From NCBI RefSeq assembly GCF_023721415.1, contig NZ_JAMQVC010000001.1, positions 1,488,001-1,552,000 on the forward strand: 64,000 bases of DNA, given 5' to 3'. This DNA is from Galbibacter mesophilus (GTDB lineage Bacteria; Bacteroidota; Bacteroidia; Flavobacteriales; Flavobacteriaceae). Within the stretch, counting starts at the first letter, position 1. The number at the start of each line of letters is the position of its first letter. A program made the translations under genes and the position numbers. Positions 5,307 through 7,736 of the stretch are shown one piece after another. A model generated the notes under the pieces. It was not told the DNA's origin. It searched no databases and saw only the letters and a program-made list of their open reading frames with translations.

Positions 5307-5729
5307 ATGAGAAAAATAGTAGCAATAGTAGCAATGATGGGAATATTGATGACCCTTAGTTGTAAAGAAGAAACGAAGAAAAGTAATGAGCCAACACAAA
5401 TGGAAATGGTTATGGCCGTTCACGACAGTTTAATGCCCAAAATGAACACTATTTCCAAGTTGGTTGGGGAGTTGAACGAGAAAGCTGATTCTACAGAAAT
5501 TGGAATGAAGTATGAAAGTGCGAAGAAAGATTTACAGGCGGCCCATAAATCGATGATGGATTGGATGAAAGGTTTCGGAGATCGTTTTGATCACGAAGAA
5601 ATTTTAAACGGAAAAGATCTTTCTGAAGAGAAAAAACAATGGTTGAATGAGGAAGAGGAAAAGGTAAAAGCTTTAAAGGAAGAAATAAATTCCAGCATTG
5701 AAAATGCCGAAAAGCTTTTGAATGAGTAA
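5307..5729 (+). CDS. Small lipoprotein, coiled-coil, unknown function
   Basis: A 140-residue protein with a lipoprotein signal (MRKIVAIVAMMGILMTLSC), so the mature protein is probably anchored at Cys19. The rest is highly charged and helical: a Met-containing segment (MEMVMAVHDSLMPKMN) and then long alternating Lys/Glu stretches likely to form a coiled coil. No enzyme motif is seen. It follows the PepSY gene by 54 bp on the same strand and may be the last gene of the metal-uptake operon. The His/Met-rich segment near the N-terminus is compatible with metal binding but this is not shown. Confidence 0.7.
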   Translation: MRKIVAIVAMMGILMTLSCKEETKKSNEPTQMEMVMAVHDSLMPKMNTISKLVGELNEKADSTEIGMKYESAKKDLQAAHKSMMDWMKGFGDRFDHEEILNGKDLSEEKKQWLNEEEEKVKALKEEINSSIENAEKLLNE

Positions 5730-5886
5730 ATGAAAAGATCTCACTAATGATTTGCAGAAGTGTTTAGGGTGGTGTTGTAGCTAAGGAAAGTTTGCCCTAG
5801 CACAAAGCTGTTGTTAGTCTTCGTCATGTATTTAAAGGAGATATCCCTGTTGGAGATGACAAAAAACTCTAGAGTCATTTTTATAA

Positions 5887-6006
5887 TCATTTTGTGTTTT
5901 TCAATGATTGAATACTTGCATTGGTTATCCTTTCCTCAAAATTGGATGTAATCCCAACATAATACTGGCCCGCAGATTTACTGAAAAGAATATACAGCAT
6001 TTTCAT
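5887..6006 (-). pseudogene. Truncated GIY-YIG nuclease copy (distal repeat unit)
   Basis: On the minus strand an ATG at 6006 opens a 39-codon frame starting MKMLYILFSKSAGQYYVG, near-identical to the N-terminus of the intact GIY-YIG protein at 6108-6389. The match to the other repeat units stops at about 5924; a short tract resembling the far end of the gene follows before a TGA at 5887, so an internal deletion or recombination removed most of the gene. It retains the GIY-YIG strand (YIL...YYVG) but not the catalytic remainder. It is the remnant of the third copy in the 383-bp tandem array. Confidence 0.8.
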
Positions 6007-6025
6007 ATTCGATAGTTTTAAAAAC

Positions 6026-6062
6026 CAAAAAACCCGATTACCAAAAATGGAATCGGGCTTTT
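6026..6062 (-). terminator. Terminator-like hairpin, distal repeat copy
   Basis: Inverted repeat cccgatt (6033-6039) and aatcggg (6051-6057) flanked on the minus-strand 3' side by a T-rich tract (plus strand aaaaaccaaaaaa). It is the copy belonging to the tRNA fragment at 6065. Confidence 0.6.
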
Positions 6063-6064
6063 AG

Positions 6065-6107
6065 TGGTGGTGCCTCCAGTCCCGACGCTTCGGGAGAACC
6101 AGAGACA
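6065..6107 (-). pseudogene. tRNA-Phe 3'-end fragment with altered T-loop (distal)
   Basis: On the minus strand the segment carries a T-stem start (one base different from the proximal copy), TTC, then an extra perfect hairpin TCCCGA-AGCG-TCGGGA in place of the T-loop remainder, then CTGG, AGGCACC, A and CCA. It therefore matches residues 49-76 of the adjacent tRNA-Phe apart from the hairpin. The 5' half of the tRNA is absent, so it cannot be a functional tRNA. Confidence 0.75.
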
Positions 6108-6389
6108 TCATTTTTTCTTCAAAATGTCCGATAGAATATCCGGGTTTTCAATGACTCTTTGGATAAATGTTTTGCTTTTCATTCTTTTAATGAAACGTTC
6201 CAAGTACATCGCATCCTCCTGCGATTCACAATCGAACCTAAGTGCAGTCTCCCAATCGTCCGCTTTTTTTGTGAAGGCATTTTTGTAACTTCCGTTTTGG
6301 TGTTTTGCTATCCTTTCCTCAAAATTGGATGTAATCCCAACATAGTACTGGCCTGCGGATTTGCTGAAAAGAATATACAGCGTTTTCAT
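6108..6389 (-). CDS. GIY-YIG nuclease domain protein, intact copy
   Basis: A 93-residue single-domain protein of the GIY-YIG superfamily (UPF0213/YhbQ-like). The signature YILFSKSAGQYYVGITSN gives the tyrosine-containing first strand and the YVG strand; it is followed by the conserved Arg helix (FEERIAKHQNG), a Lys-rich strand (FTKKADDWETALRF) and the metal-binding Glu helix (EDAMYLERFIKRMKS). Length is normal for solo GIY-YIG proteins. Such small proteins are common in Bacteroidota; their substrate is not established. This is the only uninterrupted one of three tandem copies. Its stop codon borders directly on the tRNA-Phe fragment at 6065-6107. It has no obvious promoter of its own and may depend on readthrough from the tRNA-Phe transcript. 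Confidence 0.85.
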   Translation of the reverse strand: MKTLYILFSKSAGQYYVGITSNFEERIAKHQNGSYKNAFTKKADDWETALRFDCESQEDAMYLERFIKRMKSKTFIQRVIENPDILSDILKKK

Positions 6390-6408
6390 ATTCGATTGTT
6401 TTAAAAAC

Positions 6409-6445
6409 CAAAAAACCCGATTACCAAAAATGGAATCGGGCTTTT
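6409..6445 (-). terminator. Terminator-like hairpin, middle repeat copy
   Basis: Same inverted repeat as at 6026 and 6792: cccgatt 6416-6422 and aatcggg 6434-6440 with an adjacent minus-strand T tract. It lies between the tRNA fragment at 6448 and the intact GIY-YIG gene. Confidence 0.6.
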
Positions 6446-6447
6446 AG

Positions 6448-6490
6448 TGGTGGTGCCTCCAGTCCCGATGCTTCGGGAGAACCAGGGACA
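6448..6490 (-). pseudogene. tRNA-Phe 3'-end fragment with altered T-loop (proximal)
   Basis: Second copy of the tRNA-Phe 3' fragment (acceptor 3' strand, CCA and T-arm). The T-loop is again replaced by a hairpin, here tcccga-tgct-tcggga. One base in the T-stem flank (gaaccaggg against gaaccagag in the distal copy) is the same as in the real tRNA, so this copy is the less decayed one. Confidence 0.75.
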
Positions 6491-6772
6491 TCATTTTTTC
6501 TTCAAAATGTCCGATAGTATTTTTGGGTTTTCAATAACCTTTCGGATAAATTTTTTGCTTTTCATTTTTTTAATGAAACGTTCCAAGTAAATCGCATCCT
6601 CCTGCGATTCACAATCGAACCTAAGTGCAGTCTCTCAATCGTTTGCCTTTTTTGTGAAGGCATTTTTGTAACTTCCGTTTTGGTGTTTTGCTATCCTTTC
6701 CTCAAAATTGGATGTAATCCCAACATAGTACTGGCCCGCAGATTTACTGAAAAGAATATACAGCATTTTCAT
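6491..6772 (-). pseudogene. GIY-YIG nuclease copy with in-frame nonsense codon
   Basis: Full-length copy (94 codons including stop) collinear with the intact gene at 6108-6389 and 383 bp away. The frame is kept throughout, but the Trp codon of the strand KKADDW (TGG in the intact copy) is TGA here, after KKAND. Downstream residues remain recognisable (ETALRFDCESQEDAIYLERF), so the stop is a recent single-base change rather than the end of a diverged gene. The product would lack the Glu helix and be inactive. It is the copy closest to the tRNA-Phe gene. Confidence 0.85.
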
Positions 6773-6791
6773 GTTCGATAGTTTTAAAAAC

Positions 6792-6828
6792 CAAAAAACC
6801 CGATTACCAAAAATGGAATCGGGCTTTT
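6792..6828 (-). terminator. Terminator of tRNA-Phe
   Basis: Immediately after the CCA end on the minus strand comes the hairpin CCCGATT/AATCGGG (plus strand 6799-6805 and 6817-6823, loop accaaaaatgg) followed by a T-rich run (TTTTTTGGTTTTT). It has the shape of a rho-independent terminator for the tRNA transcript. Confidence 0.75.
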
Positions 6829-6830
6829 AG

Positions 6831-6906
6831 TGGTGGTGCCTCCAGGAATCGAACCAGGGACACAAGGATTTTCAGTCCTTTGCTCTACCAACTGAGCTAA
6901 GGCACC
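6831..6906 (-). tRNA. tRNA-Phe (GAA)
   Basis: 76 nt including an encoded CCA. Minus strand: acceptor GGTGCCT pairing with AGGCACC, D-arm GCTC/GAGC with loop AGTTGGTA, anticodon stem AAGGA/TCCTT with loop CTGAAAA (anticodon GAA), 5-nt variable loop and T-loop TTCGATT. The T-stem reads CCTGG on both sides, so its central pair is a U-U mismatch while the other four pairs form. It is followed by a terminator and preceded by a consensus promoter. Its 3' end is duplicated twice in the neighbouring tandem repeat. Confidence 0.96.
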
Positions 6907-6925
6907 AGTTGCTTGATTGCGGGTG

Positions 6926-6955
6926 CAAATATAGATGCAAATTTAATATTTGCAA
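6926..6955 (-). promoter_or_regulatory. Promoter of tRNA-Phe (Bacteroidota consensus)
   Basis: Minus strand TTG, exactly 19 bp, TATATTTG: a perfect match to the Bacteroidota primary-sigma promoter TTG-N19-TAnnTTTG. The -7 element (plus strand caaatata, 6926-6933) ends about 20 bp before the tRNA 5' end at 6906. Confidence 0.85.
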
Positions 6956-7007
6956 AACATTTTTTAAAAAAATCGGTTTTGTAAATTTACAACTTTAAAT
7001 TTAAAGG

Positions 7008-7736
7008 ATGAATTTAATAGTAGATGTAGGAAATTCTTTTGTAAAAGTTGCTGTTTTTAAGGCAGATGTGCTTCAGTATGTCACGAGAGTTGCCATGGAA
7101 GAATTTTTAAAAAAAATTTCTGAAATTTTTCAAAAGTATCCGGAAATAGTTAGAACTATGATTTCTTCCGTAGGAAAATTGCCGAATGAATATGAAAAAG
7201 CACTGGCCGTTTTCGCACCCGTGCAAACATTAAGTCGTAATTCCAAAGTTCCCTTTGTAAATGCGTATGCCACACCACAGACCCTCGGAGTTGATAGAAT
7301 TGCCTTGGCCGCTGCGGCATATTACCATTACACGCACAAGAATTGTTTGATTATAGATGCGGGATCCTGTATTACGTACGATTTTTTATCGAATGAAGGT
7401 GTCTACAAAGGTGGTGCCATTGCGCCTGGAATTAAAATGAGATATAAAGCCATGAATGCTTTTACGGCCAATCTTCCTTTAATTGATTCATTTGAAATAG
7501 GTGATTTTATTGGAGATTCAACTGAAAGCTGTATGATTTCGGGAGTTTTACACGGAGTTGTTAATGAAATGGATGCTACAATTGCACAATATCAAAAAAA
7601 ATTTAAAGATTTAACAGTTATTTTAACAGGCGGTGATAGTCATTTTTTGTCTAAAAGATTAAAAAGTAGCATATTTGCCCATCCGAATTTTCTCGTAGAG
7701 GGAGTTAATTATATTTTAGAACTCAACAAACACTAA
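7008..7736 (+). CDS. coaX: Type III pantothenate kinase
   Basis: A 242-residue CoaX, phosphorylating pantothenate with ATP, the first step of coenzyme A synthesis, in the cytoplasm. Visible ASKHA-fold motifs: the phosphate-1 loop DVGNSFVKVAVF at residues 5-16, TPQTLGVDRIALAAAAYYH near 88-106 (pantothenate-contacting GxDR), the phosphate-2 loop IIDAGSCITYDFL near 118, and GGAIAPGIKMRYKAM. Length is normal. The stop overlaps the start of the next gene by one base (TAATG), so translation is probably coupled. In Flavobacteriaceae coaX commonly heads this block of envelope genes; it carries no known envelope role itself. Confidence 0.95.
   Translation: MNLIVDVGNSFVKVAVFKADVLQYVTRVAMEEFLKKISEIFQKYPEIVRTMISSVGKLPNEYEKALAVFAPVQTLSRNSKVPFVNAYATPQTLGVDRIALAAAAYYHYTHKNCLIIDAGSCITYDFLSNEGVYKGGAIAPGIKMRYKAMNAFTANLPLIDSFEIGDFIGDSTESCMISGVLHGVVNEMDATIAQYQKKFKDLTVILTGGDSHFLSKRLKSSIFAHPNFLVEGVNYILELNKH

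Follow-up and report, generated by a model that had tools for sequence, protein, structure and literature searches.

Single-Gene GIY-YIG Units at tRNA Genes of Galbibacter mesophilus and Its Relatives, a Probable Case of Minimal Homing-Type Elements

Analysis of a 64,000-nt stretch of the Galbibacter mesophilus genome (contig NZ_JAMQVC010000001.1, positions 1,488,001 to 1,552,000; the whole stretch is called the window here) led to a tandem array of 383-bp units beside the gene of tRNA-Phe(GAA). We consider it probable, at roughly two chances in three, that each unit is a minimal homing-type selfish element, which would enter a tRNA gene by a nuclease cut and its repair, leave the tRNA intact and grow into arrays. 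The parts of such a unit would be a free-standing gene for a GIY-YIG endonuclease, a second copy of one end of the target tRNA (together with the terminator in the downstream form described below) and a pseudo-tRNA, usually with a palindrome-bearing arm. As judged from the comparison of occupied and empty sites, the units are really inserted into tRNA genes, with one intact copy left and the native flank resuming after the pseudo-tRNA.

Organization of the Array beside tRNA-Phe

Tandem Repeats Finder reported a period of 383, 2.4 copies and 94% matches at 5926-6845 of the window, and a separate repeat search gave the same spacing (383, 383). Along the minus strand, which carries all of the features, the order is tRNA-Phe, terminator, GIY-YIG copy A, pseudo-tRNA 1, terminator, copy B, pseudo-tRNA 2, terminator and copy C. 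The intact host gene, tRNA-Phe(GAA), is located at 6831..6906 (ARAGORN; Rfam tRNA, 70.3 bits). It is followed by terminator hairpin A at 6799..6823 and then by a T run at 6793-6798 (minus strand), and the hairpin sequence recurs at distances of 383 and 766 bp as hairpin B (6416..6440) and hairpin C (6033..6057), both recognized from sequence and repeat spacing. The only intact GIY-YIG gene among the three is the middle one, copy B (6108..6389), which encodes a protein of 93 aa bearing the conserved residues of the family. Copy A (6491..6772) is a degenerate open reading frame (ORF) with one in-frame TGA, and copy C (5926..6006) is cut off after ~27 codons at the end of the array, the outer end of which is therefore truncated. 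Both pseudo-tRNAs, at 6448..6490 and 6065..6107, begin with tRNA-Phe bases 45-56 (6479-6490 and 6096-6107), continue with a 16-nt palindrome, TCCCGAAGC(A/G)TCGGGA, which replaces bases 57-61 (6463-6478 and 6080-6095), and end with bases 62-76 (6448-6462 and 6065-6079). Units A and B share 360/383 identical bases, and the remnant of unit C (139 bases) agrees with A at 137/139 positions and with B at 133/139. Each 383-bp unit contains one conserved gene, that of the GIY-YIG protein, and encodes no integrase.

The initial annotation of this region, which was drawn from the letters of the window, had placed tRNA 3' ends at 6831, 6448 and 6065, hairpins at 6799, 6416 and 6033 and GIY-YIG starts at 6772, 6389 and 6006, and all nine landmarks were recovered at the 383-bp spacing. 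The same annotation credited every unit with a terminator, a small GIY-YIG gene and a tRNA-Phe 3' fragment. Terminators and GIY-YIG sequences were indeed found in each, but copies A (in-frame TGA) and C (truncated) are not intact; likewise, the fragment does derive from the tRNA, but it is not a plain 3' end, as the 16-nt palindrome stands in place of bases 57-61.

Occupied and Empty tRNA Genes

The tRNA-Phe/coaX neighborhood is present in 7/7 genomes of the genus, and units are established there in G. mesophilus (G000) and the congener G005 only. No GIY-YIG copy follows tRNA-Phe in the five other congeners, for one of which (G001) the sequence covered extends ~125 bp beyond the tRNA. Within the genus, units occupy tRNA-Phe in 2/7 genomes, tRNA-His in 3/7 and tRNA-Leu(CAA) in at least 4/7 (G003 being assigned by eye), and at tRNA-Arg(TCG) the seven genomes hold one filled and one decayed unit. 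As in homing genes, the element is inserted at its presumed target and relatives carry empty alleles.

The tRNA-Ala(GGC) gene of Flavobacterium allowed the junctions to be compared. Among the 30 loci listed, seven are filled and 23 are without a nuclease within 600 bp. In the empty relatives L319 and L317 the tRNA end is directly followed by the 3' flank. In the filled loci L238, L321 and L334 the flank of L319, L317 and L319, respectively, starts at the very end of the pseudo-tRNA, at an offset beyond the intact tRNA of 378 bp for L238 (86% identity over 270 columns), 366 bp for L321 (90% over 42) and 358 bp for L334 (73% over 270). For L240 and L322, which probably represent one genome, the flank was matched from its base 69 on, with no pseudo-tRNA before it. 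In the filled Flavobacterium loci a non-native terminator follows the intact tRNA, and in L238 and L321 that tRNA is itself of native type.

Distribution across Genomes, tRNA Types and Layouts

Searching with the window protein gave matches in 28/60 genomes (its own and 59 relatives). The first sample comprised 57 loci, namely every listed match outside the window, and 22 of these related GIY-YIG genes have a tRNA on the same strand within 250 bp, against ~0.2 expected with 45 tRNAs per 3.7 Mb; loci with an opposite-strand tRNA only were absent at that distance (0/57). Five further loci of the 57 (L037, L043, L049, L052, and L088) bear, as seen by eye, tRNA pieces at contig ends or severed from their tRNA. 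A sister GIY-YIG clade showed no same-strand tRNA within 250 bp at any of its 24 loci. The genome of G. mesophilus itself harbors a second unit adjoining tRNA-His (L053, G000:C2:1082738-1082980), with one nuclease gene and a pseudo-tRNA.

The sampling was then extended to the family and the phylum. In the family sample, which holds nearly one genome per genus and was taken from the head of the ranking by a tRNA-linked profile, among the matches listed and with eight listed places excluded, 70/80 loci lie within 400 bp of a tRNA. By the first tRNA within 400 bp, an assignment that is wrong for a few loci (e.g., L184), 40 of them are of an upstream form, 30 are of a downstream form and 10 are without a nearby tRNA, several of the latter still carrying tRNA pieces. 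In the phylum, 23/26 newly fetched best-scoring loci are tRNA-adjacent, a sample that shares the same ranking bias and includes five loci from the family of the window; it added Thr, Leu(GAG), Pro(CGG), and Arg(CCG) to the tRNAs concerned. Profile matches occur in 140/199 genomes of the family and in 190/296 of the phylum (the latter at a cut-off of 1e-10), counts that include the sister clade, were mostly unchecked for tRNAs and hence do not give the frequency of the tRNA-linked form. Altogether the units adjoin tRNA-Phe, His, Val, Pro, Arg, Asn, Met, Ala, Leu, Asp and others; a piece of the adjoining tRNA accompanies nearly all of them and was present, by a loose criterion, in 84/87 loci. 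A mobile element had been predicted in the initial annotation to lie beside different tRNAs, each with its own end duplicated, and this was borne out by the many isotypes, while the occupied and empty sites show insertion. Two observations named there as arguing for the contrary, a single GIY-YIG copy without tRNA fragments at the same place in relatives and a restriction of the units to tRNA-Phe, were not encountered, given the five congeners without a copy after tRNA-Phe and the many tRNA types adjoined.

Two mirror-image layouts were distinguished. The downstream form, to which the window belongs, consists of the intact tRNA, a terminator, the nuclease, a pseudo-tRNA with the 3' part and a terminator. 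In the upstream form a pseudo-tRNA with the 5' part is followed by the nuclease and the intact tRNA, and in the loci read the nuclease frame ends near or inside the 5' end of the tRNA. The view of the tRNA 3' end as the insertion site holds for the downstream units but not for the upstream ones, about half of the total, which carry the 5' part. Unit size is ~300-420 bp, and the largest arrays contain eight units (L203, 359-370 bp), seven (L228, 378-381 bp) and five (L206, 391 bp); ARAGORN detected no intact tRNA at the L203 and L228 arrays in the stretches examined.

Nuclease Lineages and tRNA Identity

When the tRNA labels are mapped onto a tree of 89 tRNA-linked nucleases, 22 changes are needed, against a mean of 61.4 for shuffled labels and with 0/200 shuffles as low, a clustering that is inflated by near-copies and read from a tree of 80 columns. 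The five tRNA-Phe units in the tree, from four genera, form one clade (97/86), as do the nine His rows (93/80), three of which come from one array. Errors in the labels tend to raise the change count: "Leu?", "Pro?" and "Tyr?" were set by eye for L037, L043, and L088 (the tRNA of L088 is probably Met, from L223 of the same genome), and two "Ser" labels stem from a neighboring tRNA in a Ser-Pro-Arg cluster. On this tree, the descent of the nucleases goes with the type of tRNA beside them. The side of the tRNA on which the unit lies switches 12 times on the same tree, and the Arg(TCG) and Leu(CAA) lineages each hold both forms, so that the lineage does not fix the side.

The Nuclease

The window protein is a single GIY-YIG domain (Pfam PF01541, E-value = 4.1e-13). 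Among 24 sequences, Y5, Y16, G18, and H30 are invariant and R26 and E64 nearly so. Its structure was predicted with a pLDDT (predicted local distance difference test) of 91.4, and the nearest solved folds are those of UPF0213, Slx1, I-TevI, and UvrC, the best Foldseek E-value being just 1.4e-3. By sequence profile, the closest solved structures are the UPF0213/YhbQ-like 1zg2 and 1ywl, and 1zg2 also ranks first by fold; to our knowledge, no function has been established for that family. The ratio of non-synonymous to synonymous substitution rates (dN/dS) was calculated for the 30 closest of 115 pairs, nine of which are saturated at silent sites. It ranges from 0.07 to 0.29 in 20/21 unsaturated pairs, and the remaining pair (0.48) represents two near-identical copies in one genome. 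By this measure, the tRNA-linked nuclease evolves under purifying selection.

Several other identities were considered for the units and rejected. Four of the proteins gave weak and partial matches only against PADLOC (best E-value = 1.6e-5, L041 to PDC-S14), and a known defense system was rejected on that account. A group I intron was rejected because Rfam returned the tRNA and two weak matches far below the cut-offs at 5500-7200; in eight loci no self-splicing intron RNA was found, and only tRNA reached Rfam gathering scores. Finally, a phage or plasmid vehicle was rejected in view of the database matches given below, and no viral contig was confirmed for the units.

Pseudo-tRNAs and Palindromes

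The palindrome of the window is one of many. A perfect stem of at least 6 lies within the inserted letters in 69/104 distinct pseudo-tRNA rows, against 5.8 expected from shuffles of the same letters (58/83 when counted by locus), and a perfect stem of 7 in 49 of these rows, against 1.5 expected. The count left out duplicate rows, rows without a 9-nt tRNA piece and "no fragment" rows (six distinct), and two or three spurious tRNA-Ser rows were still counted. The palindromes replace or interrupt an arm of the tRNA: they were located at 9/10, 14|18, and 22/23 in the D arm, at 28|46 and 35|41 in the anticodon arm, and at 45|51, 51|67, and 56|62 in the T arm. Families such as TCCCGA..TCGGGA, CCCCGA..TCGGGG, TCACGC..GCGTGA, and CCTGCC..GGCAGG recur across genomes, and several of them also across different tRNAs. 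In the Phe set (six distinct rows) all cells are paired and two of six pairs are altered on both sides; its covariation score and its share of paired cells were each reached by 0/500 shuffles.

Palindromes of this kind are also found away from tRNAs. In the genome of G. mesophilus, TCCCGAnnnnTCGGGA was matched at 15 places and its reversed control at none, and 12/13 of the places beyond the window have no tRNA within the ~1 kb examined. Some remnants were noted by eye. At L346 (G000:C5, ~78.6 kb) a remnant of a tRNA T arm, split by TCCCGAGGCTTCGGGA, lies between tRNA-Gly and tRNA-Leu, and no nuclease gene was seen; at L345 and L347 the same palindrome family tips a longer hairpin (TGTCACCC..GGGTGACA), a palindrome inside a palindrome. 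L109 and L111 are nuclease-free remnants after tRNA-Phe: both show another tRNA 3' end in which the T arm is disrupted, and L111 also repeats the terminator.

Proposed Mechanism and Alternative Explanations

Under the homing reading, the nuclease would cut the intact tRNA gene, and the break would be repaired from a DNA copy bearing the element, the conserved tRNA sequence serving as ready-made homology. The palindrome would spoil the cut site of the pseudo-tRNA, leaving the intact tRNA as the only target. Because each insertion would leave an intact and cuttable tRNA, a sister copy pairing out of register at the pseudo-tRNA could lead to a repair that adds one unit, and a tandem array would form. 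A tandem insertion that regenerates the tRNA each time had been proposed for the window at the outset. The insertion with an intact tRNA left behind agrees with it; the window array itself may have grown either by repeated insertion or by unequal crossing-over of one inserted unit.

Several observations weigh against this reading. The 76-nt tRNA-Phe is identical in all seven congeners, occupied or empty, and therefore the host of the element should itself stay cuttable; a homing gene leaves no uncut target in the occupied allele, and here, provided that the tRNA arm is the target, an identical intact tRNA remains, with only the pseudo-tRNA disrupted. The terminator of the unit resembles the one after tRNA-Phe in the empty congener G006, so that the window site alone is no proof of entry from outside. 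Of the filled tRNA-Ala loci, 7/12 matched the flank of none of the nine empty loci used for comparison, and in L238 and L321 the T stem reads CGGT in the pseudo-tRNA and CGAT in the intact tRNA, which places the right exchange in the last ten or so tRNA bases and not at the palindrome. Regarding the palindromes, 35/104 pseudo-tRNA rows are without a perfect stem of 6 in the inserted letters. The count of pairs changed on both sides in the Phe set (two) was reached by 166/500 shuffles, so we take the covariation as supportive only. Moreover, a palindrome that merely spoils a cut site would not need to stay palindromic, and the homing reading as it stands does not explain why the pairing is kept. 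The window protein has no relative among 50,697 phage records, and its plasmid relatives amount to one weak match with 29% identity. Lastly, all of the support is comparative, and cleavage, transfer and change in copy number are inferred from it.

Plain local duplication, by which an ordinary tRNA-side gene would have been duplicated with the tRNA end and the terminator through unequal crossing-over and without any mobility, would suit the window itself: the units are 94% alike and share a single terminator type, unit C is closer to A than to B, as recombination between copies would give, and the empty G006 has a terminator like that of the unit. We nevertheless regard it as quite unlikely, since many tRNAs are adjoined, nearly all with their own piece, the flanks of empty sites continue exactly and the terminators of filled ones are non-native, and the nuclease lineage tracks the tRNA across genera. 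As the origin of the units it is ruled out by the occupied and empty tRNA-Ala genes of Flavobacterium; part of the changes in copy number is likely still caused by unequal crossing-over. It is very improbable that the units are remnants or cargo of integrase-type genomic islands that use tRNAs as attachment sites, with the GIY-YIG genes as passengers. A unit of ~300-420 bp has space for the GIY-YIG gene alone, what the upstream units retain of the tRNA is its 5' part, and arrays of as many as eight nearly regular units are unlike attachment-site remnants. What speaks for islands are the phage-integrase genes, identified in three of four frames tested, beside the arrays of L208 and L232 and at tRNA-His of G005, where an array lies 30.6 kb from the tRNA behind a piece of it (bases 31-75); against this, the integrase element of G005 looks as if it came later, into a tRNA that was already occupied (see below).

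A function at the RNA level, serving the host or based on addiction, would have the nuclease act on the tRNA and the transcript of the pseudo-tRNA act as decoy or antidote. Such a function would account for the purifying selection on the nuclease, for the match between its lineages and the tRNA types and for the Phe palindrome, whose variants stay paired in the manner of an RNA hairpin. We find it unlikely, because the patchy occupancy in the genus, the decayed copies and the tandem arrays fit a selfish element better and the relatives by profile and fold include the DNA nucleases Slx1, I-TevI, and UvrC. A broader and rather doubtful idea joins GIY-YIG genes and short dispersed palindromes in a single mobile system that would span the phylum and recognize stem-loop (inverted-repeat) DNA; the tRNA units would be its autonomous members. 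The nuclease would then open the arms of tRNAs as well as other hairpins, a few families of palindromes would be inserted or exchanged at those arms, and the target would be set by the inverted-repeat shape as well as by sequence, as a GIY-YIG counterpart of the relation between RAYTs and REPINs.

Relation to Known Systems and Significance

RAYT and REPIN sequences represent the association of a single-domain nuclease family with short dispersed palindromes. RAYTs are relatives of HUH (Y1) transposases, whereas the protein of the units is of the GIY-YIG type. Integrase-type elements also insert in tRNA genes and restore the tRNA with a duplicated piece, but they need a site-specific integrase, which the units do not encode. 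Two described systems come close to the homing reading. SegB, a free-standing GIY-YIG homing enzyme of the tRNA cluster of T-even phages, is described as cutting within a tRNA-containing sequence and is needed for the tandem amplification of the phage tRNA-Tyr/segB segment via homologous recombination, probably at microhomology that the 5' end of the tRNA shares with the 3' end of the nuclease gene (PMC13096335). The likeness lies in a GIY-YIG nuclease adjoining tRNA genes and in the tandem amplification of a segment of tRNA and nuclease. SegB belongs to a phage and not to a chromosome, and a truncated, palindrome-bearing tRNA duplicate is absent from its description in the part of that report consulted; compared with it, the units presented here are single-gene and lie at many tRNAs, and their arrays are bordered by one tRNA that stays intact. 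The mORFs of fungal mitochondria carry a foreign C-terminal end of atp6, atp9, cox2, or nad3; their insertion replaces the end of the host gene, the native end staying downstream of the ORF, and the endonuclease is of the LAGLIDADG type in three and of the GIY-YIG type in atp9 (PMC3630166). They resemble our units in joining an endonuclease ORF with a spare copy of a host-gene end, and the arrangement in which this ORF lies between the intact host gene and the duplicated end is found here too. The host genes differ (mitochondrial protein genes there, bacterial tRNA genes here), and the excerpted mORF report describes no palindrome, tandem arrays or 5'-restoring form.

Searches of open-licence PMC papers brought up none that seemed to describe units like these. 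Nuclease-driven homing and insertion that restores the host gene are already known; apparently new, within the literature searched, are the bacterial single-gene form in tRNA genes, its two mirror-image layouts, the arm-replacing palindromes and the tandem arrays. If the homing reading is true, the units are among the smallest autonomous mobile elements, with one gene of ~80-100 codons, and live at essential genes by always leaving one intact. They would also provide a natural collection of nucleases paired with about a dozen types of tRNA and a testable case of a homing element that expands in tandem when its host site stays non-immune. Moreover, one explanation would join tRNA fragments and GIY-YIG genes that otherwise seem unrelated.

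Integrase Genes and the Sister Clade

Phage-integrase family genes (Pfam) adjoin the unit arrays in L208 and L232 and the intact tRNA-His of the congener G005, and in no case do they lie within the units. Of the four frames tested, three were positive and that of L203 matched nothing. The site of L208 is ~8 kb from the five-unit tRNA-Met array of the same genome. In G005 (L279 and L286, G005:C1, ~3545.3 and 3514.6 kb) a three-unit array is located 30.6 kb from the intact tRNA-His, behind a piece comprising tRNA bases 31-75. From their arrangement, the integrase elements read as later arrivals in already occupied tRNAs, as appears to be the case for tRNA-His of G005, which would explain some of the arrays without an intact tRNA at their head.

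In the sister clade, the GIY-YIG genes of L061, L064, L066, L071, L078, L083, and L092 are not at tRNAs and are flanked by repeated intergenic sequences, some of them palindromic. Rfam gave no common RNA that could account for this clade in 36 loci, most of them without a nearby tRNA. Hairpins of the clade number 0.83 per kb near the gene and 0.17 per kb further off (14 and 17 hairpins, respectively), and the coaX loci have 0.26 per kb.

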